Shown piece after piece: positions 852 to 19,335 of a stretch of 64,000 nucleotides of DNA. Position 1 is the stretch's first letter; each line of letters starts with the position of its first letter. The position numbers and the translations under genes are program-made. Source of the stretch: Caulobacter sp. BK020 (GTDB lineage: Bacteria; Pseudomonadota; Alphaproteobacteria; Caulobacterales; Caulobacteraceae); NCBI RefSeq assembly GCF_004342605.1, contig NZ_SLZL01000010.1, positions 124,001-188,000 on the forward strand, in the 5' to 3' direction. The notes under the pieces are model-generated. The model saw only the letters and a program-made list of their open reading frames with translations. It made no database searches and was not told where the DNA came from.

Positions 852-1568
852 TCAGCCTTCCGGGCGGAAAAAGGTGTTGGCCGTCAGCCGGCCCATGCGG
901 GGGTCGGCGCTGGCCGGGCGGTCGGCCAGCACGCCGGCGTGCAGCAGGTTGCTGGCGTAGACCACGATCCTGTTGAACCCCGGCGCCACCACGGCCGTCT
1001 GTTCGTAGTGGGCGTCGGAGGCCGTGATGTAGCCGCCCTGGCCGCCCGCGCCGTCGGCCAGCTCCTGGCGCACGGCCGCCAGATAGGCGGGACCGCGCGC
1101 GGGGTCGATCGCCTCGAACCCGGTGGCGCGGTGGCGATAGAAGGCCGTGCCGCCGTGCGGGGGGCCGCACAGATAATGCAGGATCGCCAGCTGCCCCGGC
1201 GCGGTGGTGTCGATGTGCGGCAGGCGCTGGGGCTGGGTCGCCTGGTCGGCCGGCAGGGTGGCCATCGACAGGGCGCAGGTGACGTGGGCGCGGCCGTCGA
1301 GCGGCGCGCCGAAGGTCGTCGCCAAATGCGGCCGCAGGGCGGAGATAAGCGCCTGGACATAGCCGGCCGGCGCGGGGGCCCGGACGCCGGGATAGAAGTT
1401 GGCGGCGGTCCGGACCGGCGCCAGCCTGGCCGTCTCGGCCGCGAACGCCACCAGGTCTTCCGCGCCCGTCAGCAGGCCGTCGATCACCAGCACGGGATGG
1501 CCTTCGCGGCCGATCCGCAGCGCCTCGACGCGCCGATCCGGACCTGGCGCGAAGGCGGGTCCGTTCAC
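852..1568 (-). CDS. DUF6445 family protein, dioxygenase-like
   Basis: A 238-residue protein that I recognise as the DUF6445 type, a family commonly found beside Trp-halogenase-like genes. Function is not established. Visible residues fit a 2-oxoglutarate/Fe(II) dioxygenase fold: an HxD pair at H118-I-D120 (LPHIDT), a glycine-rich GGTAFYRHR segment at about 139-147, a distal H210 (NLLHAGV) and an Arg at about 227 (GRLTANTFF). The H..R spacing matches a 2-oxoglutarate-binding site, but the assignment is inference. Its ATG overlaps the halogenase stop by 4 bases, so the two are translationally coupled. It is the last gene of the GlcNAc operon. No signal peptide, so cytoplasmic. Confidence 0.8.
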   Translation of the reverse strand: MNGPAFAPGPDRRVEALRIGREGHPVLVIDGLLTGAEDLVAFAAETARLAPVRTAANFYPGVRAPAPAGYVQALISALRPHLATTFGAPLDGRAHVTCALSMATLPADQATQPQRLPHIDTTAPGQLAILHYLCGPPHGGTAFYRHRATGFEAIDPARGPAYLAAVRQELADGAGGQGGYITASDAHYEQTAVVAPGFNRIVVYASNLLHAGVLADRPASADPRMGRLTANTFFRPEG

Positions 1569-3157
1569 CGCCGGGGCGCCTCGCCGGCCTCGGCCGTGGC
1601 CAGGCCGGGGGCCTGGGTCGAGAAGCCGCGCGTATAGATGTCGGTCAGCAGGGCGCGATGGTCGGGCAGGCTGGCGGCGGCGCGCAGGCCCGCTTCCCGC
1701 ACCCGCGCGAAGTCGGCCCGGGCCAGGTCGCCATGCACGTGGGCCGCCGGGTCGACGGTGGTCTCAAACCCCATGCCGTACAGAATGTACTGGTAATTGA
1801 AGTACTTGAAGCTCTCGTGCAGGTTCGGGAAGTCGAACACGTTGGGCGGCCGGTGCTTCCACATCGCCAGGTGGTCCAGCAGCGTCTCGGGGATCGAGGC
1901 CGGGTCGGCGTTGTCGGTCCAGAAGCGGTTGTCGGTGCGCTGGCTGAGGCAGTAGTGCAGCTTGATGAAGTCGATGGCCCGCAGGTAGCGGTCGGTCATG
2001 GCCGCGTTGAACTGGCGGGCGGCGGCGTCCATCCCGCCCCGGCGCGGCAGGTTGCGGGCCAGCATGTAGGCGGCGGCCTCGATCAGTACGACGCCGGTCG
2101 ATTCCAGCGGCTCCAGGAAGCCGCCGGACAGGCCCACCGCGACGCAGTTCCCGATCCAGTGCGCCTGGCGATGGCCGACCTTCAGCTTCAGCAGCCGGGG
2201 CGTCAGCCCGTCGCCGGCCCGGCCGACATAGCCGCGCAGCACCTGCTCGGCGCGCTCGTCGGTGGTGTGGCGGCTGGAATAGACATAGCCCGTGCCCCGG
2301 CGGTCGGGCAGGCCGATGTCCCAGGTCCAGCCGGCCTCGTGGGCGGTGGAGATCGTGGTCGTGGCCACCGGGGCGTCGGGGCGCTCGTAGGGGACTTGCA
2401 GGGCCAGGGCCCGGTCGACGAACAGGGTGTCGCCCCTGTCGATCCAGGCCGAGCCCATCGCCTCGCCGATCAGGGCCCCGGCGAAACCCGTGCAGTCGAC
2501 ATAGAGGTCGGCGACCAGGTCGCCGTGCTCGCGCGTCGTCACCGAGGCGATCGAACCGTCCTCGGCCTTGTTCACAGTCAGCACGTTGCCCAGCAGGTGC
2601 TTGACGCCCGTGGCCTTGCCGACCTCGCGCAGCAGGCTCGCCAGCTTGCCGGCGTCGAAATGGTAGGCGTAGGCCATCGGCCCGCCGTACTGCGGATCGT
2701 CCAGCCGCTTGGGCCCGCGCATCGCCTCGCAGACCTTGTCCTGCAAGGTGACGGCGTCGGAGAACGGGATGTCCCCCGCCTCGCCCATCAGCCAGTAGGG
2801 CGCCAGGTCCAGGCCGCCATTCAGCAGCCGGGGCTGGGCGAACGGGTGGTAGTAATGGCTGTGGACCCCGTCCCTCGGCGCGGTCTTCCAGTCGACGAAC
2901 CTGATGCCCTGCTTGAAGGCCGCTCCGGCCTCGCGCATGAACCGCGCCTCGTCGACGCCCAGCGTGCGCATGGTGTTCTGGATGGTCGGGAACGTGCCCT
3001 CGCCCACCCCGATGATGCCGATCTCGCTGGACTCGATCAGGGTGATGCGCACCCCGTCCGGCCGGGTCGAGCCCAGCCGCCGGGCCAGGTAGGCGGCGGT
3101 CATCCACCCGGCCGTGCCGCCGCCGACGATCAGGATGTCGTTGATCGCCTGGCTCAT
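1565..3157 (-). CDS. Flavin-dependent tryptophan-halogenase-like protein
   Basis: 530 residues, the usual length for the PrnA/RebH family. FAD-binding GGGTAGW lies at 12-18. The catalytic Lys equivalent is K82 in AAFKQGIRF, the flavin-halogenase signature appears as WTWDIGL at 277-283, and EPLEST at about 349-354 includes the expected catalytic Glu at about 352. Key residues are therefore intact, so halogenating or related FADH2-dependent chemistry is possible; the substrate need not be free tryptophan. Start chosen at the ATG at 3157 (MSQAINDILIVGGG) because the FAD motif follows at once; the frame stays open further upstream only because it reads through nagE out of frame. It sits 4 bp after nagE and overlaps DUF6445 by 4 bases, so it belongs to the sugar operon. 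No flavin reductase was seen in the window. Confidence 0.88.
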   Translation of the reverse strand: MSQAINDILIVGGGTAGWMTAAYLARRLGSTRPDGVRITLIESSEIGIIGVGEGTFPTIQNTMRTLGVDEARFMREAGAAFKQGIRFVDWKTAPRDGVHSHYYHPFAQPRLLNGGLDLAPYWLMGEAGDIPFSDAVTLQDKVCEAMRGPKRLDDPQYGGPMAYAYHFDAGKLASLLREVGKATGVKHLLGNVLTVNKAEDGSIASVTTREHGDLVADLYVDCTGFAGALIGEAMGSAWIDRGDTLFVDRALALQVPYERPDAPVATTTISTAHEAGWTWDIGLPDRRGTGYVYSSRHTTDERAEQVLRGYVGRAGDGLTPRLLKLKVGHRQAHWIGNCVAVGLSGGFLEPLESTGVVLIEAAAYMLARNLPRRGGMDAAARQFNAAMTDRYLRAIDFIKLHYCLSQRTDNRFWTDNADPASIPETLLDHLAMWKHRPPNVFDFPNLHESFKYFNYQYILYGMGFETTVDPAAHVHGDLARADFARVREAGLRAAASLPDHRALLTDIYTRGFSTQAPGLATAEAGEAPRR

Positions 3158-3161
3158 GGCC

Positions 3162-4922
3162 TCACCCCGGCAGCAGGCAGCGCACCGCCTCGCCGATACG
3201 CTCGGCGTCAGGACCCAGCACCACGTGCACGGCGCGGGCGCCGACCCGGACGACGCCGCGCGAGTCCAGGGCCGCCAGGGCCGCCTCGTCGACGGCGGCG
3301 TTGTCGCGCACCACCAGCCGCAGGCGGCTGGAGCAGGCCCCGACCGCCTCGACATTGGCCAGGCCGCCCAGGGCGCCGACCAGGGCCTCGGCCCGGGCGT
3401 CGTCGGCGGCGGTCGGCAGGGCGACCGGGGCCGCGGCCTTGGCGACGGCGGGCTTCACCGGCGCCGGTGCGGAGACGGCGCCTCCAGCCATCGCGGCGCG
3501 GATCTCGCCGGCCACGCCGTCGGCGATCGGGCCGAGCACCACCTGCAGGGCCTTGTCCGAGGGCTTGACGATCCCGCGCGCGCCCAGGGCCTTCAGGGCC
3601 GGTTCGCTGACCGCGCCCTGGTCGGCGACGATCAGGCGCAGGCGGGTGGTGCAGGCGTCGACCGAGACCAGGTTGGCCGCCCCGCCCAGGGCCGCGACGA
3701 AGTCGGCCCCGCGCCCGCCGCCCGTGGTCGCCGCCTCGGCCGAGACCACGTCGTCGGCCTCGCGCCCCGGGGTCTTCAGGTCGAACTTGACGATGAAGAA
3801 GCGGAACAGGCCGTAATAGACGGCCGCGTACAGCGCCCCCAGCGGCAGCAGCCACAGCGGATGGGTGGCCTTGCCGAAGTTCAGCACATAGTCGAACAGC
3901 CCAGCCGAGAAGGTGAAGCCCAGCTTGATGTCCAGGGCGTTCATCGCCGCCATGGCCACGCCGGTCAGCACCGCGTGCACCGCATAGAGCAGCGGGGCCA
4001 GGAACATGAACGAGAACTCGATCGGCTCGGTCACCCCGGTCAGGAACGAGGTCAGGGCCAGCGAGGTCAGCATGCCGCCGACCGCCTTTTTCTTCTCCGG
4101 CCGGGCCGTGTGGTACATGGCCAGGCACGCGGCGGGCAGGCCGAACATCATCACCGGGAAGAACCCGCTCATGAAGCCGCCGGCGCTGGGGTCGTCGGCG
4201 AAGAAGCGCCGCAGGTCGCCGGTCGCGCCGTGATAGTCGCCGATCACGAACCAGGCGATGTTGTTGAGGATGTGGTGCAGGCCGGTGACGATCAGGATCC
4301 GGTTCAGGAAGCCATAGACCAGCAGGCCGAACTCGCCCGAGCCGACGATGGCCCGGCTGGCCCCGTCGACCGCGCCGTTGATGCCGTCATAGCCCAGGCC
4401 GATCAACACCGCGATCAGCAGGCCCGCCAGGCCGCTGACGATCGGCACGAAGCGCCGGCCGCTGAAGAAGGCCAGGTATTCGGGCAGCTTGAAGGTCGAG
4501 AAGCGGTTGTAGAACATCCCGCCGACCAGGCCCGAGGCGATGCCGATCGGTACGCTGAGCTTGGCCAGGGCCTTGGCCTTGTAGGCGGCCGAGGCCAGGT
4601 CGGCGTGAGCCTTGATCAGGCCGGCCGTGACGTCCGGCGGCACGTGCAGCAGGGCCTTGGCGCCCTCGGTGGCGATCAGGAAGCAGACCACGCCGGCCAG
4701 GCCGGCCGCGCCGTTGTTCTCCTTGGCGAAGCCGACGGCGACGCCGATGGCGAACAGCAGGCCGAGGTTGGAGAAGATCGCGTCGCCGGCCGCGGCCACG
4801 AAGGCGATGTTCAGCAGGTCCGGCTGGCCCAGCCGCAGCAGCAGTCCGGCCACCGGCAGGACGGCGATCGGCAGCATCAGGGCCCGGCCCAGGGGCTGGA
4901 GGAATTCGAGCGGGGACTTCAT
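3162..4922 (-). CDS. nagE: PTS N-acetylglucosamine permease, IIC-IIB-IIB
   Basis: 586 residues. The N-terminal two thirds (about 1-370) is a PTS glucose/GlcNAc-type IIC membrane domain, starting MKSPLEFLQPLGRALMLPIA and with the conserved TEPIEFSFMFLAPLLY loop. It is followed by two IIB domains: phosphocysteine candidates C424 (VDACTTRLRL) and C530 (VGACSSRLRL), each with the downstream VVLGP strand. E. coli NagE instead carries one IIB and a IIA; here IIA is on the neighbouring NagF. It imports GlcNAc across the inner membrane and phosphorylates it to GlcNAc-6-P. The start lies 5 bp after the nagF stop and the next gene begins 4 bp downstream. The ATG at 4922 was chosen because the IIC family N-terminus begins there. 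Confidence 0.93.
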   Translation of the reverse strand: MKSPLEFLQPLGRALMLPIAVLPVAGLLLRLGQPDLLNIAFVAAAGDAIFSNLGLLFAIGVAVGFAKENNGAAGLAGVVCFLIATEGAKALLHVPPDVTAGLIKAHADLASAAYKAKALAKLSVPIGIASGLVGGMFYNRFSTFKLPEYLAFFSGRRFVPIVSGLAGLLIAVLIGLGYDGINGAVDGASRAIVGSGEFGLLVYGFLNRILIVTGLHHILNNIAWFVIGDYHGATGDLRRFFADDPSAGGFMSGFFPVMMFGLPAACLAMYHTARPEKKKAVGGMLTSLALTSFLTGVTEPIEFSFMFLAPLLYAVHAVLTGVAMAAMNALDIKLGFTFSAGLFDYVLNFGKATHPLWLLPLGALYAAVYYGLFRFFIVKFDLKTPGREADDVVSAEAATTGGGRGADFVAALGGAANLVSVDACTTRLRLIVADQGAVSEPALKALGARGIVKPSDKALQVVLGPIADGVAGEIRAAMAGGAVSAPAPVKPAVAKAAAPVALPTAADDARAEALVGALGGLANVEAVGACSSRLRLVVRDNAAVDEAALAALDSRGVVRVGARAVHVVLGPDAERIGEAVRCLLPG

Positions 4923-4927
4923 CGCTT

Positions 4928-7456
4928 TTAGGCTCCAACCTTCGAATGGAAGGCTTTGCAAAGATCTCGGACCGCCTCGGGCGAGGTCTGGTCCAGCGCC
5001 TGGCGGGCCAGGGCCTGGCAGGCTTCGACGTTCAGGGCGCGGACCAGGGCCTTGACCTCCGGCACAGTGGCGGCCGTGGCCGACAGCTCGGTGACGCCCA
5101 GCCCGACCAGCACCGGCACGGCGACCAGGTCGGAGGCCAGGCCGCCGCAGACGCCGACCCAGCGGTGGTGCTTGGCGGCGCCGGCGCAGGTCTGGGCGAT
5201 CATCCGCAGCACCGCCGGGTGCAGGGCGTCGATGCGGGCGGCCAGCTCCGGATTGCCCCGGTCCATGGCCAGCACGTACTGGGTCAGGTCGTTGGTGCCC
5301 ACGGACAGGAAGTCGGCCTCGGCGGCCAGCAGGTCGGCGGTGACGGCCGCGGCCGGGGTTTCGATCATCACCCCCAGCTCGACCCGCTCGGTGATCTCCA
5401 GTTCGCGCTTGGCCTCCTCCAGCACGGCGCGGACGGCGCGCAGCTCGTCGAGGCTGGCGATCATCGGGACCATGATCCTGCACTGACCCAGTGGCTTGAC
5501 CCGCAGGATGGCCCGCAGCTGGGTCTTCAGCAGGTGCGGCCGCCACAGCGAGACACGCACGCCGCGCAGGCCCAGGGCCGGGTTCTCCTCGGCCGGGATC
5601 GGCAGGTAGGGCGCGGCCTTGTCGCCGCCGACGTCCAGGGTGCGGATGATCAGCGGACGGCCGTCCAGGGCCGAGGCGATGGCCTGGTACTGGCGGGCCT
5701 GCTCATCCTCGTCGGGCGGGGTCTCGCGCTCCAGGAACAGGAACTCGGTGCGCAGCAGGCCCGAGCCCTCGGCGCCGTTGGCGGCGGCGGCCAGGGCGTC
5801 GTTCAGCGAGCCGACATTGCCGAACACCTCGATCCGCGTCCCGTCGGCGGTGCGGCTTTCCTGGTGGGCGGCGGCCTTGGCGGCGGCCTTGCGCTCGTGG
5901 CGGGCGGCGATGGCGGTCTGGGCGTCGGCCAGCTGGCCGGCGTCCGGCCCGACCCGGAGCGTGCCGTTCTCGGCGTCGAGGATCAGGCTGGCGCCCTCGG
6001 TGACGTCCAGCACGCCCGGACCGGCGGCGACGATGGCCGGGATGCCCATGGCGGCGGCCAGGATGGCCACGTGCGAGGTCGGCCCGCCCTTGGCGGTGCA
6101 GAAGCCCGCCACCTGGCCGGCCTCGACGCCCATCAGCTGCGAGGGCAGCAGTTCGTCGGCCAGCAGGATGGCGCCGGGCGGCAGGGCGCGGGCCTCATCC
6201 TCCTCGCCGCTCAGGGCGCGCAGCACCTGGCGCTCCAGGTCGATCAGGTCGTCGACCCGCTCGGCCAGCCGCCGGTCGCCCAGGCCGCGCAGGGCCTCGA
6301 CATAGCCGCCGACCGCGCGCCGCCAGGCGAAGCCGGCGCTCTTGCCCTCGGCGATCAGCCGGTGGGCCGAGGCGGTCAGTTCGGGATCCTCCAGGAAGGC
6401 CAGGTGGGCGCCGAGGATGGCCTTGCGGGCGGTGTCGCCCCCCAAGGCGCTTTGGGCCGCGGCCTGCTCGATCCGGGCCCGCACCTGGGCCAGGGCGCTC
6501 TCAAGAGCGGCGCGCTCGACGCCCGCGCCGGCGCCGGCCTCGACCACCGCGATGTCGCTGGACACGAAGCGCACGGCCTGGCCGATCGCCAGCCCCGGCG
6601 CGGCCATCACCCCGCGCAGCAGGCCCGGCTCGCTGGGCGGCGCGACACGGACGGCCTCGACCACGGCGGCCGGGGCGGCGGCCGGCGGCGGGGCCGCGCC
6701 CTCGCCCATGCCGCCCTCGATCAGCTCGACGACGGCGGCGACGGCGAAGTCGGCGTCCGGGCCGCTGGCCACCACGCTGATGCGGTCGCCGTGGCGGATG
6801 GCCAGGGACATCACCCCGACCGGGCTCTTGGCGCTGGCCCGGCGGTTGACCGCGACCAGGGCGACCTCCGAGGCGAACTTGCGAGCGGTCTCGGCGATGC
6901 GGGCGGCGGGCCGGGCGTGGACGCCGTGCTGCAAGGGGACAATGACCTCGCGCGACACCTCGCCCTCGGCGACGGCCAGGGTCGCGCCGGCTCCGGCGAT
7001 CGGGGCCAGCTCCATCAGGAAGTCGCCGACCGCGGCGGCGTGGTCCTGCTCGCGGCGGACGATCTGGAAGGCGTCGGGATTGGTGATCACCACCGGAGTG
7101 ATCAGGCTCTTGGCGCGTTGCGACAGCAGGTCCAGGTCGAAGCTGATCAGCTTGTCGCCGGCCTTGACCGCGTCGCCGTCCTTGACGTGGACCTCGAAGC
7201 CCTCGCCGCCCAGTCCGACGGTCTCCAGCCCTACGTGCATCAGGATCTCGGCGCCGTTGCCGGCCCGCAGGGTGACGGCGTGGCGCGTGGCGTGCACGGA
7301 GATCACCCGTCCGTCGCAGGGGGCGTGCAGGGTCGAGCCCAGCGGGTCGATGGCCAGGCCGTCGCCCAGCATGCGCTCGGCGAACACGGCGTCGGGCGTC
7401 TCGTCCAGCGGGGCGATCCAGCCCTTGAGCGGCGAGGACAGTACGAGATTGGGCAC
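4928..7456 (-). CDS. nagF: Multidomain phosphoryl-transfer protein IIA-HPr-EI
   Basis: 842 residues in three modules. IIA of the glucose type (about 1-150) has its phosphohistidine at H74 in ILMHVGLETV. HPr (about 170-255) has H180 in GVHARPAA and the later SPVGVMSLA helix. Enzyme I (about 280-842) has H462 in GGPTSHVAILA and the PEP-site CGG segment near residue 770 (GVCGGLASD). It moves phosphate from PEP to NagE in the cytoplasm, so uptake is self-contained and independent of a general PTS. It lies 27 bp downstream of the hexosaminidase and 5 bp upstream of nagE in one operon. All three phosphorylation sites are present. Confidence 0.94.
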   Translation of the reverse strand: MPNLVLSSPLKGWIAPLDETPDAVFAERMLGDGLAIDPLGSTLHAPCDGRVISVHATRHAVTLRAGNGAEILMHVGLETVGLGGEGFEVHVKDGDAVKAGDKLISFDLDLLSQRAKSLITPVVITNPDAFQIVRREQDHAAAVGDFLMELAPIAGAGATLAVAEGEVSREVIVPLQHGVHARPAARIAETARKFASEVALVAVNRRASAKSPVGVMSLAIRHGDRISVVASGPDADFAVAAVVELIEGGMGEGAAPPPAAAPAAVVEAVRVAPPSEPGLLRGVMAAPGLAIGQAVRFVSSDIAVVEAGAGAGVERAALESALAQVRARIEQAAAQSALGGDTARKAILGAHLAFLEDPELTASAHRLIAEGKSAGFAWRRAVGGYVEALRGLGDRRLAERVDDLIDLERQVLRALSGEEDEARALPPGAILLADELLPSQLMGVEAGQVAGFCTAKGGPTSHVAILAAAMGIPAIVAAGPGVLDVTEGASLILDAENGTLRVGPDAGQLADAQTAIAARHERKAAAKAAAHQESRTADGTRIEVFGNVGSLNDALAAAANGAEGSGLLRTEFLFLERETPPDEDEQARQYQAIASALDGRPLIIRTLDVGGDKAAPYLPIPAEENPALGLRGVRVSLWRPHLLKTQLRAILRVKPLGQCRIMVPMIASLDELRAVRAVLEEAKRELEITERVELGVMIETPAAAVTADLLAAEADFLSVGTNDLTQYVLAMDRGNPELAARIDALHPAVLRMIAQTCAGAAKHHRWVGVCGGLASDLVAVPVLVGLGVTELSATAATVPEVKALVRALNVEACQALARQALDQTSPEAVRDLCKAFHSKVGA

Positions 7457-7483: not shown

Positions 7484-9838
7484 CTAGTAGGGGGTGGGGG
7501 CCAGCGTGACCTGGTCCAGCACCAGGGTCGGCTCGACCGTGCGCGCTGTAAAGGTCAGGCAAAGGTCGTGGACGCCCTCGCGCTTGGGCAAGGGGCCCGA
7601 CACCGTCCCCAGCCCGGGGCCGCGCGCGGCCGCGCCCAGCGGGATGGCGGCGATCGGCTCGCCCGCGCAGCCGTCGATCCGCACCTCCAGCTCGCCGGCC
7701 CGGGTGGCGGGCGGACGCAGCGGGATCTTCTGGCGGTCGGCGCCGATCTGGAAGTTGAACGGGACCTGGCCGATGCGGGCGGTCAGCGTCAGGCCCGCCG
7801 ACAGGTCCGCGTCCTTCCACACCCAGCAGGGATTCATCAGGTCGACCGCGAACACCGCGCGCGGGCCGTTCCCGGAGCCGCTCTTCGGAGCGTCATCCTC
7901 AAGCGACAGGTTGATGCCGCTGCCGCAAAGCTCCAGCTGGTGGCTGTCGCGCGTGCGGGCCGCCCGCAGGCTGACCGGATAGTCGCGGACGCGGCCCAGG
8001 GCGTCGTCGCCCAGGAACGTCCGGGTCCGGACGGTCTTGCCGGGCGCCACGGCCAGGGGCGCCGCGTAGAGGTCCGAAGCCTTGGTCGGGGCCTTGCCGT
8101 CGGTGGTGTAGCGGATCTCGCCCAGGCCCAGGCCCGAGGCCAGGGCGACCGAGACCTGGCCGCCGTCGGCCGGGCTTAGGGTCGCCTGCGGCTCGTACGG
8201 CACGGTGTCGTGGGCCACGCCCAGCACGTCCAGCCGCGCGGTCTCGGCCGGCAGGCGGGCCGCAAAGTTGCTCCAGTCGTGCTTGTCGACGGGGGTCCAG
8301 CCGTTCTCGGCCACCGCGACCAGGCGGGGGAAGGTCATCCGTTCCAGCCGTTCGTCGGTGCGCATGTGCTCGGTGAACGAGGTGGCCTGCAGGCCCAGGA
8401 TGTGGGCGCGCTGGGCCGGGGTCAGCGCCGCCGGGGCGGCGTCGAAGTCGTAGACGTCCCTCAGGCTGATGATCTTGATCCGACCCGGCGGCTCGTCGGC
8501 CGAGGCGCTCTGGCGGCGGTCCAGGTAGAGGGTGCTGTCGGGGGCCAGCACCGCGTCGTGGCCCTGCGAGGCGGCGGCGACCGCCCCGTCGATCCCGCGC
8601 CAGGACATCACCGTGGCGTTGGGCGCGAGCCCCCCTTCCAGGATCTCGTCCCAGCCGATCATCCGCCGGCCGCGGGCGTTGATGTGCTTTTCGGCCCGCT
8701 GGATGAACCAGCTCTGCAGGCCGTGCTCGTCCTTGACGCCCAGGGCCTGGATCTGGGCCTGGACCTCGGGGCTGGCCTTCCACTGGTCCTTGACCGCCTC
8801 GTCGCCGCCGACGTGGATGTACTCGGATGGGAACAGGTCCATCACCTCGTCGAGCACGTCATTGAGGAACGTGAACGTCTCCTCGCTGGGCCGGTAGAGG
8901 TAGGGGAACACGCCCCAATCGCCCATCGACGCGCGCGGCGGGGCCTTGGTCATGCCGAACTGCGGATAGGCCACCAGCGGCGCCAGGGCGTGGCCCGGCA
9001 TCTCGATCTCCGGGACGACGGTGATCCCGCGCGCGGCGGCGTAGGCGACCAGGTCGCGCACCTGATCCTGGGTGTAGAAGCCCTGATAGCGGATCGCCTT
9101 GCCGGTCCGCGGATCCCGGCCCGCCGCCCCGGCCGGGACGCGCCAGGCGCCTTCGGAGGTGAGCCTGGGATATTTCTTGATCTCCAGCCGCCAGCCCTGG
9201 TCGTCGACCAGGTGCCAGTGCAGGACGTTCAGCTTGTGGGCGGCCATGGCGTCGAGGATCGCCTTGATCGTCTCCACGCTCTGGAAATGGCGGGCGCTGT
9301 CCAGCATGAAGCCCCGCCAGGCGAAACGCGGGCTGTCGTCGATGGCGACGGCCGGCAGCTGGGCCGGCCCCTTGGCCGCGTCCTGGACGGCCAGCTGCCA
9401 GACGCTGACCGCGCCGTAGAACAGGCCGGCGCGTTGGGCGGCGGTGATGGTCACGCCGGTCGGGGCGACCCGGAGGGCGTAGGCCTCGGCCTTGTCGCCG
9501 CCAGCCTGGCCGCGCGCCAGGACGATAGCCGCCTCGCCGGCGGGCGGCGCGCCCTCGACCACGGCGAGCTTCAGACCCCGGGCCTTGAACAGCATGTCGG
9601 ACAGCTGGCCGGCCACGACGCGGGCCTCGACGTCGCCCCGGGGGACAAAGATCCGGGTCCGGGCGGTCAGGGCGAAGACCCCTTGTCCCATCGTCGCCTG
9701 GGCAGGCGCCGGCGTCAGGGTCAGGGCCGGTTCAGCGGCCCAGGCCGCCGAGGCGAAGGCCAGGGCGGCGGCCGAAACCGACAGGGCGCCGGCCAATCTC
9801 CGGGCAGCGCGGGTGAAGGACAGGGCTGGGATCATCAA
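7484..9838 (-). CDS. Beta-N-acetylhexosaminidase (GH20), secreted
   Basis: 784 residues with an N-terminal signal peptide (basic MMIPALSFTRAARR, hydrophobic core, cleavage near ASAAWAA at about 35). A GH20b-like domain is followed by the GH20 catalytic barrel, with the catalytic Asp-Glu pair D346-E347 in HVGGDEAVKDQW and the substrate-site HWHLVDDQGWRLEI at about 207-220. After the barrel comes a chitobiase C-terminal-like segment (IRYTTDGKAPT) and a C-terminal region resembling a carbohydrate-binding NPCBM-type beta domain. It releases terminal GlcNAc from chitooligosaccharides in the periplasm or at the cell surface and supplies the PTS encoded just downstream. It has its own 228-bp upstream region holding a terminator after the TonB receptor gene. 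Confidence 0.93.
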   Translation of the reverse strand: MMIPALSFTRAARRLAGALSVSAAALAFASAAWAAEPALTLTPAPAQATMGQGVFALTARTRIFVPRGDVEARVVAGQLSDMLFKARGLKLAVVEGAPPAGEAAIVLARGQAGGDKAEAYALRVAPTGVTITAAQRAGLFYGAVSVWQLAVQDAAKGPAQLPAVAIDDSPRFAWRGFMLDSARHFQSVETIKAILDAMAAHKLNVLHWHLVDDQGWRLEIKKYPRLTSEGAWRVPAGAAGRDPRTGKAIRYQGFYTQDQVRDLVAYAAARGITVVPEIEMPGHALAPLVAYPQFGMTKAPPRASMGDWGVFPYLYRPSEETFTFLNDVLDEVMDLFPSEYIHVGGDEAVKDQWKASPEVQAQIQALGVKDEHGLQSWFIQRAEKHINARGRRMIGWDEILEGGLAPNATVMSWRGIDGAVAAASQGHDAVLAPDSTLYLDRRQSASADEPPGRIKIISLRDVYDFDAAPAALTPAQRAHILGLQATSFTEHMRTDERLERMTFPRLVAVAENGWTPVDKHDWSNFAARLPAETARLDVLGVAHDTVPYEPQATLSPADGGQVSVALASGLGLGEIRYTTDGKAPTKASDLYAAPLAVAPGKTVRTRTFLGDDALGRVRDYPVSLRAARTRDSHQLELCGSGINLSLEDDAPKSGSGNGPRAVFAVDLMNPCWVWKDADLSAGLTLTARIGQVPFNFQIGADRQKIPLRPPATRAGELEVRIDGCAGEPIAAIPLGAAARGPGLGTVSGPLPKREGVHDLCLTFTARTVEPTLVLDQVTLAPTPY

Positions 9839-9862: not shown

Positions 9863-9897
9863 GCAAAAAGCGGGCGGAGCGTTTTACCGCTCCGCCC
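9863..9897 (-). terminator. Rho-independent terminator between the TonB receptor and hexosaminidase genes
   Basis: Read on the minus strand, a perfect 10-bp stem (GGGCGGAGCG with its complement, arms 9888-9897 and 9872-9881) with a 6-base loop is followed by a run of five T at 9864-9868. It lies 170 bp after the receptor stop and 25 bp before the hexosaminidase start, so it should limit read-through from the receptor into the enzyme/PTS genes. Confidence 0.85.
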
Positions 9898-9992
9898 CAG
9901 CTCCATGCTTGCAGTCAGGAGGACTTGGGTCGCGATCGGCGGCGGGCAGGTCATGAAGCGATCCTGGACCATGCCGCCTCCGACGCGACAAT

Positions 9993-10066: not shown

Positions 10067-12838
10067 CTAGAACTTGAACCGGACGCCGCCAAAGACCATG
10101 CGGCCGTTCTTGTAGATACGGGCCGGACGGTTCTTGTCGTTGTCGTAGTTGTCGGTCTGCTTCTCGTCGGTGAGGTTCACCGCGTCGAGGCTGAGCGAGA
10201 TCTGGTCGGTCAGGTTGACGCTGGCCGACGCGTCGAGCGAGGCGATCGAGTCCGACCACAGCTGCCGGTAGCCGCGCTCGGCGTCGTAGTCGACGAAGAA
10301 CTTGGACCGGTAGTTGTAGGACAGGCGGGCGCTGAAGCGCTCGTTCTCGTAGTAGCCGCTGACGTTGAAGATGTTCTTCGAGTTCGACGGCACCGGCACG
10401 CCCGACGACGAACTGGCGTCGGAATAGGTGTAGTTGGCCAGGACGCCGAAGCCGTTCCAGACGGGCATCTGGAAGTTGACCTCGAAGCCCTTGGTCTCGC
10501 CGCCGGCCACGTTGACCGGACGGCCGACATTGTAGTCGCAGCTGTAGAGGCCGGCCGATTGCAGGACGCAGTTGTTGGCCGGGTTGACGACCCGCGGGTC
10601 GTTGGCGGCCGCCTGCAGCGGCAGCTTCTCGACCGTCGCGCCCTGGACGATGTAGGTCGAGATGTCCTTGTAGAAGAAGTCGACCGACAGGATCGACTGC
10701 GGCGCGAAGTACCACTCCACCGTCGCGTCGTACTGGTTGGCGCGATAGGGATCCAGGTCCGGGTTGCCGCCCGAGGCCGTCAGCAGGGACTCGGTCAGCG
10801 AGGTGAAGCCGGCCATCTGGGCGTAGTCCGGACGCGCCAGGACACGACCGGCGGCCAGACGGATCACCACGTCGTCGCGGACGTCGAACGAGAAGTTCGC
10901 CGACGGCAGGATGTCGGTATATTCCTTCTCGCCCGTGGTCGGGGCCATCAGGCCGAACGGGTTGTTGATGGCGCCCGGCGTGCCGGCCGACACGCCCACC
11001 CGCCAGGCGTTGGTCTCGATCTTGGTGTTGACGACGCGGACGCCGACATTGCCGCGCCAGCCCTCGCCCTTCAGGTTGCCCATCACGTAGCCGCCGAAGG
11101 TCTTCTCGTTGAAGTCGAAGCTCTCCAGCGGGCCGAAGTGGTCGCAGTTGCTCAGGCCGATGCAGCCGCCGACATTGGGGTTGTTCGGGTCATAGACCGT
11201 CGCCGGCCCCATCGCGGCGTAGATCGCCTCGATCTTGTCCTTGCTGGCGGTCAGGTACGAGCTGAGCACGCCCGGCCCCTTGATGCCGTCCAGATAGTCG
11301 CCCGGCGTCACGCCATTGGCCACGTCGGCCAGCGAGCAGGCATGGCCGCCGCACGCCGTCGCGCCGAACAGGGCCCGACGCTGACCGTAGGTCTGCACCA
11401 CGTCGCGGTCATGGTCGGTGTATTTCAGGCCGAACTTGACCGAGCTGAAGACGCCGCCGTCGAGGAACTTCTCGCCGTCGACGAAGGTGTAGAACTCGTC
11501 GTCGTCGTTGACCGTGGTGTTGGCCGAGACCCAGCCCAGGGTCATCTCGTCGTCGGCCGTGGTCGGGGTGATGTTGGTGAACGCCACCTTCGGCAGGCCG
11601 TTCGACAGGTCGTAGGTCAGGCCGGTCGGGGCGTTGGTCTCCCAGAACGGCTGCAGGTCGGTGGCGCCCTTGGCCTTGGTGTAGCCGACGCGGCCGCTGA
11701 ACTCCCAGCCCTCGGACGGACGCCACTTGCCGGCCAGGTCGATCGAGCCGACGTTGGTGTGGGCGATGCGGTCGATGGCGTCGAACACCACGCCGTTGCC
11801 GCCGATGGCGTTGAAGTTGCCGGCGGTGGCCGTGCCGTTCTCGACGCGGGTGATGTTGAACTGCGAGCCCGGCGAGGTGGAGAGGGCGCCGATCTTCTGG
11901 CTGATCCAGGCCATGTAGTTCTGGTTGAAGTTGTCGGCGTCCATCTTGGAATAGAGGCCGGTCAGGTTCAGTTCGAACTTGTCGGTCGGCGCGTACTGGA
12001 TGGCGAAGTTGGCGCCCTTGCGCTCGCGCGTCTGGGTGAACAGCGACGAGCCGATCAGGCTGGGCGCATAGACCGTCTGGTCGGGCGTGATGCCGCTGAT
12101 GTTCGTGCCGTCGCCCGAGGCGGTGGTCACCGCCTGGTAGCCCAGCACCTCGATGCCGTCGCGGCGGATGCGGCGCTTGTCGTAGATGCCGCCGACCAGG
12201 ACGCCCAGGGTCTTGTCGGCGTTGTGCCAGCTGAGCATGGCCGAGGCGGTCGGATCGGTGTTGCCCGACTTCTCGTCATGGAAGGCCTGGACCGAGCCGG
12301 AGACCGACAGCGGCGCCAGGTCCAGCGGGTTGCGGGTGTGCACATTGACCGTGCCGCCCACGCCGCCTTCGTCGATGTCGGCCATCGGGCTCTTGAACAC
12401 CTCGACCTTGCCGACGATTTCCGACGGCAGCATCAGGTAGTTGAAGCTGCGGCTGGCCTTGAACTGGTCGAGAATGAACCAGTCGGCCGTGGCCACGGCG
12501 TGGCCGTTCAGCAGGGTCCGGTTCAGGGTCGGCGCGGTGCCGCGGATCGAGATCCGCTCGCCTTCGCCGAATTCGCGCTGGATGGTGACGCCGGGAACCC
12601 GTTGCAGGGATTCGGCGACGTTCTTGTCCGGGAACTTGCCAATGTCCTCGGCGGTGATCACGTCGATCACCGCATCGGCGTTACGCTTGGCCTCGACCGA
12701 CGCCTGCAAAGAGGCCCGGATGCCGGTGACGACCACTTCGTCGACTTGCGTTGAGTCCTGCGCGAAGGCGGGCGCGGCCAACGCAACCGCCAGGACGCTG
12801 GCGGACGCGGTCAGTATGGTTTTATGGATTCTTTTCAT
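10067..12838 (-). CDS. TonB-dependent outer-membrane receptor, probable GlcNAc/chitooligosaccharide importer
   Basis: 923 residues. Signal peptide 1-26 ending APAFAQ, then a TonB box-like VDEVVVTG at about 31-37, a plug domain (ESLQRVPGVTIQRE, SIRGTAPTLNRTLLNG) and a long beta-barrel ending in the outer-membrane C-terminal signature GGVRFKF. Start chosen at the ATG at 12838 (MKRIHKTIL) because a strong Shine-Dalgarno GGGGAG precedes it and the signal peptide begins there. It is divergent from the GntR regulator and upstream of the hexosaminidase/PTS genes, which points to uptake of GlcNAc oligomers; substrate is inferred from context only. Confidence 0.92.
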   Translation of the reverse strand: MKRIHKTILTASASVLAVALAAPAFAQDSTQVDEVVVTGIRASLQASVEAKRNADAVIDVITAEDIGKFPDKNVAESLQRVPGVTIQREFGEGERISIRGTAPTLNRTLLNGHAVATADWFILDQFKASRSFNYLMLPSEIVGKVEVFKSPMADIDEGGVGGTVNVHTRNPLDLAPLSVSGSVQAFHDEKSGNTDPTASAMLSWHNADKTLGVLVGGIYDKRRIRRDGIEVLGYQAVTTASGDGTNISGITPDQTVYAPSLIGSSLFTQTRERKGANFAIQYAPTDKFELNLTGLYSKMDADNFNQNYMAWISQKIGALSTSPGSQFNITRVENGTATAGNFNAIGGNGVVFDAIDRIAHTNVGSIDLAGKWRPSEGWEFSGRVGYTKAKGATDLQPFWETNAPTGLTYDLSNGLPKVAFTNITPTTADDEMTLGWVSANTTVNDDDEFYTFVDGEKFLDGGVFSSVKFGLKYTDHDRDVVQTYGQRRALFGATACGGHACSLADVANGVTPGDYLDGIKGPGVLSSYLTASKDKIEAIYAAMGPATVYDPNNPNVGGCIGLSNCDHFGPLESFDFNEKTFGGYVMGNLKGEGWRGNVGVRVVNTKIETNAWRVGVSAGTPGAINNPFGLMAPTTGEKEYTDILPSANFSFDVRDDVVIRLAAGRVLARPDYAQMAGFTSLTESLLTASGGNPDLDPYRANQYDATVEWYFAPQSILSVDFFYKDISTYIVQGATVEKLPLQAAANDPRVVNPANNCVLQSAGLYSCDYNVGRPVNVAGGETKGFEVNFQMPVWNGFGVLANYTYSDASSSSGVPVPSNSKNIFNVSGYYENERFSARLSYNYRSKFFVDYDAERGYRQLWSDSIASLDASASVNLTDQISLSLDAVNLTDEKQTDNYDNDKNRPARIYKNGRMVFGGVRFKF

Positions 12839-13022: not shown

Positions 13023-13093
13023 ACGGAAATGGTCATATGCTATCTCCCGGGTCACGGGGTGGCGCGGTTTTGAGCGGGGGCGTGGAATTGGCG

Positions 13094-13831
13094 ATGTTTT
13101 CTGAGAAGATCGGCGGCCTCGCCGGCGACGATCACGCCCCGCTCTACAAGCAGCTGCAGCGCGCCCTGCGCGAGGCCATCCAGACCAAGGTGCTGTCGCC
13201 CGACGACGCCCTGCCGGCCGAGCGCGACCTGGCCGAGGAATTCAACATCTCGCGGATCACCGTGCGCAAGGCGCTGGACGGCCTGGTCAGCGAGGGCCTG
13301 CTGACCCGCCGCCAGGGCGCGGGCACCTTCGTCGCCGCCCGGGTGGAGAAGAGCTTTTCCAAGCTGTCGTCGTTCACCGAGGACATGATCTCGCGCGGAC
13401 GCACGCCGCGCAGCGAGTGGATCAGCAAGGCCGAGGGCTCGGTCACTCCCGAGGAGTCCCTGACCCTGGGCCTGTCGCCGGGCACCCAGGTCTATCGCTT
13501 CGCCCGGATCCGCTACGCCGACGGCGCGCCGATGGCGGTGGAATATTCGACGATCGCCGGCTTCGCCCTGCCCTCGGCCGAGGCGGTCGGGGTCTCGCTC
13601 TATGAGGCGCTGGCGGCCACCGGCCACCGGCCCGCCCGCGCCCTGCAGCGGCTGCGCGCGGTGCTGTTCACCGCCGAACACGCCGAGCTGCTGGGCGTTC
13701 CGGCCAAGGACGCCGGCCTGCTGATCGAGCGCCGCGGCTTCCTGAAGGACGGCCGGGCCGTCGAGGTGACCCAGTCCTATTACCGCGGCGACGCCTACGA
13801 CTTCGTCGCCGAACTGAACGCCCTTTCCTGA
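13094..13831 (+). CDS. GntR/HutC-family regulator of the GlcNAc locus
   Basis: 245 residues from the ATG at 13094. The N-terminal winged helix (about 16-80) reads APLYKQLQRALREAIQ, LPAERDLAEEF, SRITVRKALDGLVSEGLL and RRQGAGTFV, the standard GntR pattern. The rest is a UTRA ligand-binding domain (VYRFARIRYADGAPMAVEYSTI, ending YRGDAYDFVAELNAL). Homologous regulators sense GlcNAc-6-P or GlcN-6-P and act as repressors. An in-frame GTG at 13082 and an ATG at 13037 are alternative starts; the family N-terminus favours the later ones. First gene of the gntR-deaminase-nagA operon and divergent from the TonB receptor. Confidence 0.9.
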   Translation: MFSEKIGGLAGDDHAPLYKQLQRALREAIQTKVLSPDDALPAERDLAEEFNISRITVRKALDGLVSEGLLTRRQGAGTFVAARVEKSFSKLSSFTEDMISRGRTPRSEWISKAEGSVTPEESLTLGLSPGTQVYRFARIRYADGAPMAVEYSTIAGFALPSAEAVGVSLYEALAATGHRPARALQRLRAVLFTAEHAELLGVPAKDAGLLIERRGFLKDGRAVEVTQSYYRGDAYDFVAELNALS

Positions 13832-13884: not shown

Positions 13885-14976
13885 TTGGAGGCCCATGTCT
13901 TGACCCGATCCGTCCCCCCCGCCGAACCTTCCTCCACGCGTGGGCCTCTGACGGCGGAATCGACCCGCATGTTCCTGGAGGCCGGCCAGGCCTCGCAGGT
14001 GGTCGCCGCCCAGCTGGGGGCCAACGCCGCCCGCGCGGCCAGGATCGCCGAGCGCCTGCGGGCCAAGCCGCCGCGCGCCGTCGTCACCTGCGCGCGCGGC
14101 AGCTCGGACCACGCCGCCACCTTCGCCAAGTACCTGATCGAGACCCGCACCGGGGTGCTGACCTCGTCGGCCGCCCTGTCGGTCAGCTCGGTCTACGCCG
14201 CCCAGCAGGACCTGGGCGAGGTGCTCTACCTGGCCATTTCGCAATCGGGCAAAAGCCCCGACCTGCTGGCCTCGGTCCAGGCCGCCAAGGACGCCGGCGC
14301 CTTCGTCATCGCCCTGGTCAATGTCGTCGACTCGCCGCTCGCCGCCCTGGCCGACGAGGTCCTGCCGCTGCACGCCGGGCCCGAACTGAGCGTGGCGGCC
14401 ACCAAGTCCTACATCGCCGCCCTGTCCGCCATCGCCCAGCTGGTCGCCGCCTGGACCGGCGACGACGACCTGACCGCCGCGCTGTCCACCCTGCCCGCCC
14501 TGCTGGCCGAGGCCTGGACCCTGGACTGGACCCCGGCCGTCGAGCGCCTGAAGCTGGCCCGCAACCTCTATGTGCTGGGCCGCGGCGTCGGCTTCGGCGT
14601 GGCCCAGGAGGCGGCCCTGAAGTTCAAGGAGACCTGCGGCCTGCACGCCGAGGCCTTTAGCGCCGCCGAGGTGCTGCACGGCCCGATGGCCCTGGTCAAG
14701 GAAGGCTTCCCGGTGCTGGTGTTCGCCCAGAACGACGAGAGCCGCGACAGCGTCGACGCCATGGCCAAGGGCGTGACCGAGCGCGGCGGCGACGTGCTGC
14801 TGGCCGGCGCCGGCGAAACGGGGGCGGGCGTACTCCCCGCCCTGGCCGCCCATCCGGTGATCGAGCCGATCCTGATGATCCAGAGCTTCTACCGCATGGC
14901 CAACGCCCTGTCGGTGGCCCGCGGCTACGATCCCGACAGCCCCCCGCACCTCAACAAGGTCACAGAAACCGTCTGA
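13885..14976 (+). CDS. nagB-II: SIS-domain glucosamine-6-phosphate deaminase (NagB-II type)
   Basis: 363 residues with two SIS domains. The first has CARGSSDHAATFAKYLIE and AISQSGKSPD at about 70-125. The second has LGRGVGFGVAQEAALKFKETCGLHAEAFSAAEVLHGP at about 230-270, as in the isomerase half of GlmS, and the C-tail DSPPHLNKVTETV is also GlmS-like. It lacks the glutaminase domain, so the expected role is conversion of GlcN-6-P to fructose-6-P plus ammonia. The start is a TTG at 13885 with AAGGA nine bases upstream; the nearby ATG at 13895 is in another frame and hits a stop at once. Its stop overlaps the nagA start (TGATG). Confidence 0.9.
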   Translation: MEAHVLTRSVPPAEPSSTRGPLTAESTRMFLEAGQASQVVAAQLGANAARAARIAERLRAKPPRAVVTCARGSSDHAATFAKYLIETRTGVLTSSAALSVSSVYAAQQDLGEVLYLAISQSGKSPDLLASVQAAKDAGAFVIALVNVVDSPLAALADEVLPLHAGPELSVAATKSYIAALSAIAQLVAAWTGDDDLTAALSTLPALLAEAWTLDWTPAVERLKLARNLYVLGRGVGFGVAQEAALKFKETCGLHAEAFSAAEVLHGPMALVKEGFPVLVFAQNDESRDSVDAMAKGVTERGGDVLLAGAGETGAGVLPALAAHPVIEPILMIQSFYRMANALSVARGYDPDSPPHLNKVTETV

Positions 14977-16115
14977 TGCAGTCCGTTCTCGTCAATGGCC
15001 GCATCCTGACGCCGCAGGGGATCGTCGACGGCAAGGCCGTGGCGATCCGCGACGGGCGGATCGACGGCCTCATCGACCCCGCCGCGGCGCCGGTCGGCGT
15101 TCAGCGCCACGACCTGGACGGCGGCCTGCTCGTTCCCGGTTTCATCGACACCCAGGTCAATGGCGGCGGCGGGGTGCTGTTCAACGACTCGACCACGGTC
15201 GAGGCCATCGCCGCCATCGGCGCCGCCCACCGGCCCTATGGGACCACCGGTTTCCTGCCGACCCTGATCAGCGACGACCTGGCCGTGGTCGACGCGGCCA
15301 TGCGGGCGACCGAGCAGGCGATCGAGGCCGGCGTGCCCGGCGTGCTGGGCGTGCACATCGAGGGCCCATTCCTCAACGCCAAGCGCAAGGGCATCCACGA
15401 CGCCAGCAAGTTCCGCACCCTCGACGACGAGGCCGTGGCCCTGCTCAGCTCGCTCAAGCGCGGCAAGACCCTGGTGACCCTGGCGCCGGAGACCACCACG
15501 CCCGAGCGGGTGCGGCGCCTGGCCGAGGCCGGGGTGATCGTCGCGGCCGGCCACACCAACGCCGCCTATGGCACGGCGCGCAAGGCGCTGGACGCGGGCC
15601 TGACCGGCTTCACCCACCTGTTCAACGCCATGTCGCCGCTGACCAGCCGCGAGCCGGGCGTGGTGGGCGCGGCCCTGGAAAGTCAGACCGCCTGGTGCGG
15701 GATCATCGTCGACGGCCGTCACGTGGATCCCGCCGTGCTGCGCATCGCCTTGCGCACCCGGCCGCTGGACCGCTTCATGCTGGTGACCGACGCCATGCCC
15801 ACCGTCGGCATGGCCGACAAGAGCTTCGACCTGCAGGGCCGGCATATCCGCGTGGTCGACGGGGTCTGCGTCGATGACCACGGCACCCTGGCGGGCTCGG
15901 ACCTGGACATGATCGGCGCGGTGCGCAACGCCGTGGCGATGCTGGGCCTGTCGCTGGAAGAGGCCGTCTCGATCGCCGCCTCCGCCCCCGCCGCCTTCCT
16001 GGGCCTGGGGGGGCAGCGCGGCGCGATCCAGGCCGGCCAGACCGCCGACCTGGTGCTGCTGGACGAGGCGCTGAATGTGCGCCGCACCTGGATCGACGGC
16101 GCCGTGAACGCATAG
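14976..16115 (+). CDS. nagA: N-acetylglucosamine-6-phosphate deacetylase
   Basis: 379 residues of the amidohydrolase superfamily. Motifs include PGFIDTQVNGGGG near 50-60, HIEGPFLNAKRKGIHD (metal-ligand Glu), AGHTNAAYG and THLFNAMSPL (metal-ligand His residues), and VTDAMPTVG (catalytic Asp). It removes acetate from GlcNAc-6-P, the product of NagE uptake, giving GlcN-6-P for the SIS deaminase encoded just upstream. The ATG overlaps the previous stop by one base, so translation is coupled. A strong hairpin follows at 16150-16179. Confidence 0.95.
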   Translation: MQSVLVNGRILTPQGIVDGKAVAIRDGRIDGLIDPAAAPVGVQRHDLDGGLLVPGFIDTQVNGGGGVLFNDSTTVEAIAAIGAAHRPYGTTGFLPTLISDDLAVVDAAMRATEQAIEAGVPGVLGVHIEGPFLNAKRKGIHDASKFRTLDDEAVALLSSLKRGKTLVTLAPETTTPERVRRLAEAGVIVAAGHTNAAYGTARKALDAGLTGFTHLFNAMSPLTSREPGVVGAALESQTAWCGIIVDGRHVDPAVLRIALRTRPLDRFMLVTDAMPTVGMADKSFDLQGRHIRVVDGVCVDDHGTLAGSDLDMIGAVRNAVAMLGLSLEEAVSIAASAPAAFLGLGGQRGAIQAGQTADLVLLDEALNVRRTWIDGAVNA

Positions 16116-16202: not shown

Positions 16203-19200
16203 CTAGAACTTGTACCGCACGCCCAGATAGAACTGACGGCCGAAGTGCACGTACTCTTCCGAGCTCATGCGCGTGGAGTCGTCGACCTTGCTGTCTTCCT
16301 GGTCGGTCAGGTTGATCGCCTCGAAGGTGACCGTGAACTTGTTGAACTCGTAGCTGACCTGGCCGTCGAGGTTGAAGGTCTTTTCCTTGATCCGCACGTC
16401 GTTGTTGTTGGTCGCCGAGGGGGCCACCTGGATCAGGTACTGGTCGCGGTATGAGCCCGAGATCCGCGCCTTGAAGCCGGCGTTCTCGTAGTAGAGCGTG
16501 GCGTTGAAGGCGTCGGGCGACAGGTTCAGCAGCGGCTGGGTGACCAGCACCGCCGGGGCGGTCTGGACCCGGGGCGTGCCGCCGAAGGTCGGCGACTTGA
16601 TGATGTAGTCGATGTCGCTCTTGACGTGGGTGTAGTTGACGATCGCGCCGAACTTGTCGAACGGGGCCGGCAGGAAGGTGAACGGACGCTGGGCGCTCAG
16701 TTCGAAGCCCTTCAGCTTGCCGCCGGGACTGTTGATGTTCGTCGTCACCGTGAACGGCGTGGCGCTGGTGTTGCCGTTGCTCAGCAGGCTGTTGGGCAGA
16801 CCGGTCTCGGACCAGGCCATGACCTCGGCCGTCTGCTGGATGTAGGACTTGATGTCCTTCTGGAAGAAGCCCGCCGACAGCAGGGTTTCCTTGTCCGGAT
16901 ACCATTCGAAGCTGAGGTCCAGGTTGTTGGCCAGCATCGGATCGAGATCCGGGTTGCCGCGCGTCAGGGTCTGGGCGCTCTGGCTCATGGCGGTGAAGCC
17001 CGGCGTCAGGTTCTGCAGTTGCGGACGGGTCATCACCTTGGCGGCGGCGAAGCGGATGAAGAAGTTCTCCATCGGCTGGGCCGAGATGTTCAGGGCCGGC
17101 AGGGTGTTGGTGTATTCGCGGTTGACGGTCTGGATGGCGTCGGTGGCCATCTGCTCGGAAATCGTGCCGAACGGCGTGGCCACCGGCGTGGCGACGTTGC
17201 CGGCGTTGTAGTGGCCGGTCGCCGACTGCTCGGTCTTCACGTAGCGGACGCCCAGGTTGCCGCGCACCGGGATGTTGAAGATGTCGTAGTCGAAATCACC
17301 CTGGATGTAGAAGGCGGTGTCCTTCTCGGTGATCGCCCGCAGGGCGCCCAGCTGGTTGAGCACGCTGAGGCGGAAGTCGCCGTTGGCGTTGATGCAGTTG
17401 CAGTCGTAGCCGATGGCCTTCTTCAGCTTGTCCAGGTCGGGCGCGATCCACGAGGTCGGCACGCCGGAGGGCAGGTCGAGACCGCGGCCGAAACCGGTGA
17501 TCAGGCGCGAGACGTCGGCGACGGTGACGCCGGCCGGCAGCGGGAAGCCGGCTTCGGCGGTGAAGGTCGTGCCCGTGGCGGCCAGGTTGCGCGAGAACAG
17601 GCGCTTTTCCCACGAGGAGAAGCCGTATTCCTTGTAGTCGCCGCCGTAGCGCAGCTTGAAGCCGTCCAGGATCTCGTAGTCGACGTCGGCCCGGAAGGTC
17701 TTGAAGGTGTTGACCGCCTTGCTGGGCCGCAGGCGCAGCAGCGACGCGTCGCCGTTGGCGTTGCTGGCGCTGTAGGTGAAGTTGGCCGGGTTGGTCGGGT
17801 CGAAGCCGTAGTTGAAGTTCGGCAGCTTGTCGTTCTGCGAGTAGTCGTAGCTGTAGCCGTCGCTGTTGTAGCGATCGAACGAGAAGGTGGTCTGGACCGG
17901 GTTGTCCTGGATCGACCGCGACTGGCCGTAGACGACGTTCAGGTGGCCCGCGTCGCCGAACCGGGTGTCGTAGGTCAGGGTGAACTGGTTGAACTCGGTC
18001 TTCAGGTCGTCGTGGCGGTACTCGACCCGGGCGTCGACGTCGTCGAACGTGCCCTTGATCAGGTGGCCCTTGTCGTCGGCCTGGAAGTTGACCACGTCGG
18101 TCTGAGGCAGGCCCGCGCCGCTGCGGCTAAAGGAGATGACTTCCAGATAGGTCTCGTCGCGGTTGTTGGTGAACTTGGCCAGCAGGGCGTCGAGGGTCAG
18201 GGTCGAGTTCTCGGTCGGGCGCCATTGCAGCGAGCCGGTCACGCCCAGGCGCTTCTGGTCATATTGCAGGCGGCCGTAGCGCGGAATGCGCGGGTGCCAC
18301 AGATTGTTGGCGGTGCCGGCGGCGGCCGTCGTCGTCGGCGTGGTGCCGCCCACCACGGTGCCGATCTGGGCGCAGGTCAGAGGCGGGCCGCTGACCGGAT
18401 TATAGGCCGCGCCCGTGCAGGGGAACGCGGTCGAGGAGTTGAAGGCCACGCTGGGGTTTTCCCAGCGGCCGGTCGAGGAGCCCTCTTCCAGCGTCTTACG
18501 CTCGGCGTAGGCCACCGAGATCAGGGCGCCGATCTCGCCGATGCCGGTGTCCCAGCGGTTGCTGGCCAGGAAAGTGAAGCGCGGGTCCTTCTTCCGCGAC
18601 AGGTCGTTCCAGCCGATCTTGGCGCCCATGCTCAGGGCGGGGCCGCTGAAGTCGAACGGACGCGAGGCCTGCAGGTCGATGATCGCGCCCAGCGAGCCTT
18701 CCTCGTTCATGGCCGAGGTCGACTTGCGCACGGTGACGCTGTTGAACAGCTCCGAGGCGAAGATCGAGAAGTCGAACTGGCGGCCGCGGTTGGCGCCGCC
18801 CGAGCTGTCCTTGCCGCCGGTGGTGGCCAGGGCTTCCAGGCCGTTCAGGCGCACGACGGTGAAGTCGGGACCCAGGCCGCGCACGGTGATCGTCCGGCCT
18901 TCGCCGCCGTCGCGGTCGATCGACACCCCCGGCACGCGCTGCAGCGACTCGGCCAGGTTCAGGTCGGGGAAGTCGGCGATGTCCTGGGCCTTGATGACGT
19001 CGACCAGGTCGTTCTCGCGGCGCTTGATGTCCAGGGCGTTGGCCAGGCTGGCCCGGAAGCCGGTGACGACCACTTCCGCGACGGCGTTGTCGGGTTCGGT
19101 CGCCGGAGCGGGCGCGGGCGTTTCCTGCGCGGCGGCGGCGCCGGCCAGCGCCAGCGCCATCAGCATGGCGCCGCTGGACGCACCGAGCTTCAGCGCACGG

Positions 19201-19226: not shown

Positions 19227-19335
19227 GGATCCTCCTCCCGTGACCACATTCTTTTTGAACGACGCTTTCGCATCGCCCGGCCGAAGAGTGCGTACGCGCT
19301 TCCTTCCCGCGCGGCCGTTCTTGGGCCGTCTATTC

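Follow-up and report, generated by a model that had tools for sequence, protein, structure and literature searches.

A halogenase and a DUF6445 protein in a Caulobacter GlcNAc operon go with the type of its TonB-dependent receptor

The window (the whole stretch of Caulobacter sp. BK020 DNA that was analysed, 64,000 nucleotides) carries a nag cluster in which the receptor-to-nagE operon ends in genes for a flavin-dependent halogenase and a DUF6445 protein. Across nag operons, the presence of this pair goes with the type of TonB-dependent receptor and not with NagE, EI or NagR. The two proteins are probably a cytoplasmic oxidative pair partnered with the nag receptor, which serves GlcNAc or chitooligosaccharides. 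The cluster contained the following features, in window coordinates:

852-1568, minus strand: DUF6445 protein (PF20043), 238 aa, GTG start; predicted P4H-like 2OG-Fe(II) oxygenase with an H118/D120/H210 triad and R227
1565-3157, minus strand: flavin-dependent halogenase (PF04820), 530 aa; K82, WTWDIGL and EPLEST; function predicted from sequence
3162-4922, minus strand: NagE, GlcNAc PTS IIC-IIB, carrying another IIB-like domain at its C-terminus (profiles; two tandem PTS_EIIB stretches)
4928-7456, minus strand: PTS EIIA-HPr-EI fusion (profile matches)
7484-9838, minus strand: GH20 beta-hexosaminidase; translation probably starts from the ATG at 9835
9872-9922, minus strand: conserved leader CTCCTGACTGCAAGCATGGAG, then a terminator-like hairpin with a T-run, 5' of GH20
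10067-12838, minus strand: TonB-dependent receptor (TIGR01782) of type A, the halogenase-linked type; start taken at MKRIHK
13037-13831, plus strand: GntR/UTRA regulator, NagR-like (profile matches)
13885-14976, plus strand: NagB-II-like SIS deaminase (profile matches)
14976-16115, plus strand: NagA, GlcNAc-6-P deacetylase (profile matches)

The nagR, nagB-II and nagA genes are divergent from the strand encoding receptor-GH20-EIIA-HPr-EI-nagE-halogenase-DUF6445, and NagE matched TIGR01998 above that profile's cut-off. The pair closes the nag operon, as the sequence-only reading of this DNA had described: the gap between nagE and the halogenase gene was 4 bp (3158-3161), the halogenase and DUF6445 genes overlapped by 4 bases (1565-1568), and all lie on a single strand (minus). 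A second TIGR01782 receptor gene (16203-19247) adjoins nagA; its receptor type differs, and no halogenase accompanies it.

A NagE match was found in 33 of the 119 sampled Caulobacteraceae genomes. The common layout of the nag operons was NagR/receptor-GH20-EI-NagE, and most had no pair. A halogenase lay 3' of NagE only in G000 (the source genome), G136, G191, G645 and G583, which represent two genera, and in all five it was followed by DUF6445. The other nag genomes checked had no DUF6445, except G612, where it was found elsewhere, and G604, which gave a weak match. Receptors from the five pair-bearing genomes were 100, 97, 85, 84 and 64% identical to that of the window; pairless nag receptors were at most 47% identical to it, except that of G595 (locus L163), at 56%. 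The G595 receptor was 53-56% identical to the halogenase-linked type, its locus lacked the pair, the genome lacked DUF6445, and a halogenase triplet was found elsewhere. In G583, at a locus placed by coordinates only, the receptor (64%) was accompanied by NagE, two halogenases and DUF6445 in a row, and these were the genome's only halogenases and DUF6445.

The contrast between receptor and operon was clearest in a comparison of locus L155 (G645, with the pair) and locus L151 (G091, without it). Identity to the window was 68 vs 79% for NagE, 79 vs 80% for EI, 85 vs 86% for NagR and 62 vs 66% for GH20; for the receptor it was 83 vs 37%. On a tree of NagE, EI and NagR, G645 was surrounded by pairless genomes, and pairless G091/G101 formed the sister group of the window trio. 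Receptor type and pair changed together at two places on this tree, with G595 discordant. Only three independent contrasts were available (two agree, one shows no difference), too few for significance in a sign test; what counts in the nag comparison is how large the swap is and which way it goes, not significance. Because the receptor swaps with the pair while EI, NagE and NagR differ in history, the pair tracks the receptor and not GlcNAc metabolism. Pairless orthologous operons have a nag receptor of their own, so modification by the pair would not be needed for GlcNAc uptake generally. In G074, from another family, receptor, halogenase and DUF6445 genes were contiguous beside EI and NagE in a different order; the trio is thus kept together in two layouts. 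The functional link to the import locus drawn by the sequence-only reading is supported: the pair lies 3' of nagE in five of the sampled Caulobacteraceae genomes, from two genera, and adjoins the nag receptor in a genome from another family.

The receptor may be transcribed apart from the pair. A GC hairpin with a T-run (9872-9897) separates the receptor from GH20, and the leader CTCCTGACTGCAAGCATGGAG and hairpin were kept in nine operons with any receptor type (window, L053, L060, L148, L151, L152, L155, L156 and L166). This suggests a candidate attenuator or terminator, with the receptor perhaps on a separate or attenuated transcript. The pair is coupled to GH20-EI-NagE and perhaps not to the receptor transcript, which makes simple linkage a weaker explanation for the joint swap. 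No sigma-70 promoter was found 5' of the halogenase in a sequence scan, a method that covers alphaproteobacterial promoters poorly, and no convincing small ORF for a peptide substrate was found in the receptor-GH20 gap.

The link of halogenase to receptor class extends beyond the nag site. In the source genome, TIGR01782 matches above or close to the cut-off gave 32 receptors. A halogenase lay within 9 kb of 11 of these, against 1 of the 65 remaining receptors that carry a plug domain (Fisher p 1.2e-5), and the receptor-halogenase distance was usually 400 bp or less. This enrichment ties the halogenase to the receptor class. The halogenase is not special to the nag site, since about 20 PF04820 genes were present in the source genome, nearly all of them beside TIGR01782 TonB receptors. 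The window halogenase belonged to the same branch as other receptor-linked halogenases and the nag-linked halogenase of G074. One further halogenase of this branch (L020, G000:C4:168776-170152) adjoins a gene for a protoglobin-MCP sensor, without a receptor.

In a Pfam profile search, the window halogenase matched PF04820 over residues 7-472 (E 4.9e-128), with GGGTAGW at the GxGxxG flavin site, catalytic K82, WTWDIGL at 277-283 and EPLEST at 349-354. The canonical motif of flavin-dependent halogenases is WxWxIP, of which WTWDIGL retains WxWxI and replaces P with G. Its key residues, earlier called intact, are so for K82 and EPLEST; WTWDIGL is present as described but is the variant of a minority branch. 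WxWDIGL was found in 15 of the 115 halogenases collected, and the solved relative 2pyx has WIWDIGL. The PF04820 fold, catalytic Lys and GxGxxG are common to the window enzyme and the group-C flavin-dependent halogenases BrvH (6frl), Xcc4156 (6y1w; PMC7336383) and 2pyx; the window enzyme differs in having WxWDIGL for WxWxIP and in its operon with DUF6445 and NagE. Group-C halogenases are distinct from the free-tryptophan enzymes, and relatives in the FDH branch halogenate free indole, their native substrate being unknown (PMC8269204). Tandem halogenase clusters contained middle genes (L013:5874-7382, L015:8505-10061, L086:15278-16894 and L105:6589-8055) without the catalytic Lys and/or Glu and WxWxI; judged by these residues, they are apparently kept as inactive partners in several genomes.

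The DUF6445 protein matched PF20043 (E 9.4e-71) and no other Pfam family at E 0.001, and its comparison with the sequences of solved structures gave nothing meaningful. Among 72 aligned sequences, H118, D120 and H210 were at least 90% conserved and R227 was invariant. The predicted structure (pLDDT 94.8, pTM 0.92) had a double-stranded beta-helix fold. The nearest folds (Foldseek and VIA; Foldseek E down to 3.7e-5) were OGFOD1 (Z 14.6, rmsd 2.9 over 179), Tpa1 (Z 13.4) and LH3 (Z 13.3), followed by a bacterial P4H (Z 12.3), PHD2 (Z 12.2) and the receptor-linked PiuC (Z 12.2); small-molecule oxygenases, e.g., PasI and SnoN, were also structural neighbours. From this fold and the HxD...H...R motif, DUF6445 is a predicted prolyl-hydroxylase-like 2-oxoglutarate/Fe(II) oxygenase. 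Along nearly all of its length it has the fold, and also the HxD...H triad, of bacterial and eukaryotic protein oxygenases resembling prolyl hydroxylases (OGFOD1, Tpa1, PHD2 and P. putida P4H, which acts with EF-Tu), but identity to them was 10-18%. DUF6445 lies outside the Pfam family of YbiX, PiuC and CciO, and its likeness to PiuC is in fold only.

DUF6445 was present in 68 of the 200 genomes sampled from the order and in 34 of the 397 sampled from the phylum; outside the taxonomic class, a recurring gene order was receptor-halogenase-SapC-Cupin_8/JmjC-halogenase-DUF6445. In total, 92 DUF6445 neighbourhoods were compared, excluding the same-genus nag loci L053 and L060, which both carry the pair and were lost to an ORF filter. 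A halogenase was within 500 bp of DUF6445 in 37 of the 92 loci, where fewer than one would be expected by chance as estimated from gene counts, and within 10 kb in 55. Near these 55 were GH13 (27 loci), GH97 (19), GH3 (13) and, in few, GH20/nag genes. DUF6445-halogenase loci are thus for starch, beta-glucan and GlcNAc alike, i.e., many sugars and one receptor class. None of the partner set was found near DUF6445 in 31 of the 92 loci, including a syntenic housekeeping group, and DUF6445 is therefore not confined to a halogenase or receptor role. The refuting condition set by the sequence-only reading, a pair lying mainly away from sugar genes, does not hold where a halogenase is present, but these 31 DUF6445 loci do lie apart from the partner set. 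The housekeeping group comprised loci of one genus (L046, L051, L055-L057, L059, L065 and L066) with DUF6445 in a fixed neighbourhood (dapE-like, PBP1-like), without receptor or halogenase. The source genome has a second, diverged DUF6445 copy (L024, G000:C28:43687-44328) with no halogenase or receptor nearby.

A receptor partnership of this general kind has a precedent. In Caulobacter crescentus, CciT cannot function as a receptor without CciO, a 2OG dioxygenase of the cytoplasm; the two are broadly co-conserved, and the substrate of CciO is unknown, with three models proposed (PMC12004947). The window pair resembles CciT-CciO (and Fiu-YbiX and PiuA-PiuC) in the co-conservation of a TonB receptor with a cytoplasmic 2OG/Fe(II) oxygenase. 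It differs in that those systems have iron/catechol receptors and no halogenase, whereas the window has glycan-type TIGR01782 receptors, a halogenase and, in DUF6445, a protein of another sequence family. The halogenase-DUF6445 pair may be the glycan-receptor analogue of CciT-CciO. It would be dedicated to the outer-membrane receptor at the front of the cluster and would act oxidatively, by hydroxylation and halogenation, on the receptor polypeptide or on some other component that only that receptor type needs. Modification would take place before or during receptor export and would enable the receptor to work. Taken as a whole, an oxidative pair dedicated to the receptor and not to GlcNAc metabolism is the best explanation, with perhaps an even chance of being correct.

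Since the same enzymes occur at receptors for different sugars, the simplest shared target is the receptor polypeptide or something that only that receptor type handles. We tentatively infer that the polypeptide is the actual substrate, a part of the reading that is less likely than not and much more doubtful than the partnership itself, which is likely. Two alignments gave no Trp column separating halogenase-linked from unlinked receptors, and a composition comparison gave no Trp, Tyr or His enrichment in the halogenase-linked receptors; Asn and Pro differences were seen between receptor groups, with only three halogenase-linked sequences, too few to interpret. That no receptor residue tracks the pair suits a different target, a receptor-specific small aromatic molecule, such as a ligand carried by the receptor or an inhibitor blocking it, made, activated or degraded by the pair. 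The same models have been proposed for CciO/PiuC (PMC12004947, PMC12004943), the FDH-branch relatives act on free indole (PMC8269204), and small-molecule oxygenases are among the fold neighbours of DUF6445. Against this stand the receptor loci for chemically different glycans, which would require one shared aromatic ligand, and the locus itself, in which no biosynthetic or precursor gene was recognised. A small-molecule target is possible though rather unlikely, at odds nearly equal to those of the receptor polypeptide. Wider still, dedicated cytoplasmic sets of halogenase, DUF6445 oxygenase, Cupin_8/JmjC oxygenase and SapC might halogenate and hydroxylate proteobacterial glycan TonB receptors post-translationally; this is a speculative and rather unlikely extension, and we know of no such modification of an outer-membrane protein.

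Two other explanations do without a dedicated receptor partner. The sequence-only reading had suggested as the target a product, signal or wall component linked to GlcNAc import, to which the tight coupling to nagE and the fact that two families share the nag linkage would point. This target is not favoured here and is improbable, because most nag operons whose NagE, EI and NagR are close have no pair, DUF6445 is missing from most of the genomes that carry them, the pair and its relatives are also at starch and beta-glucan loci, and presence follows receptor type. It is slightly less improbable, yet still unlikely, that the pair entered an inducible operon but does something unrelated, e.g., makes an inhibitory bromo-indole, and matches the receptor type only through shared ancestry or joint transfer. 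The few independent events, the G595 exception and the third of DUF6445 loci that lie elsewhere are in keeping with such hitchhiking; the 7 kb between receptor and pair, filled by genes of other history, and the strong enrichment beside one receptor class speak against it.

The window otherwise resembles the TonB-receptor carbohydrate utilisation loci of Blanvillain et al. (2007; PMC1790865), in which a regulator and an inner-membrane transporter join the receptor and a glycoside hydrolase in handling a single sugar; a search of that paper's main text gave no mention of tryptophan halogenases or SapC. Searches of the open-access literature returned no paper on DUF6445, none linking a halogenase to both SapC and TonB-dependent receptors, and none on tryptophan halogenase, TonB-dependent and Caulobacter in combination; those that paired tryptophan halogenase with TonB seemed irrelevant by their titles. 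To our knowledge, the receptor-halogenase-DUF6445 association is undescribed within the open-access literature, the subscription literature being mostly outside the search.

Caulobacter-like bacteria have many halogenases of this branch. With one of them and a newly recognised predicted oxygenase tied to a receptor class, their native role can be tested in a single operon that occurs naturally both with and without the pair. A receptor-oxygenase partnership of this kind would extend the CciT-CciO finding from iron to glycan uptake.
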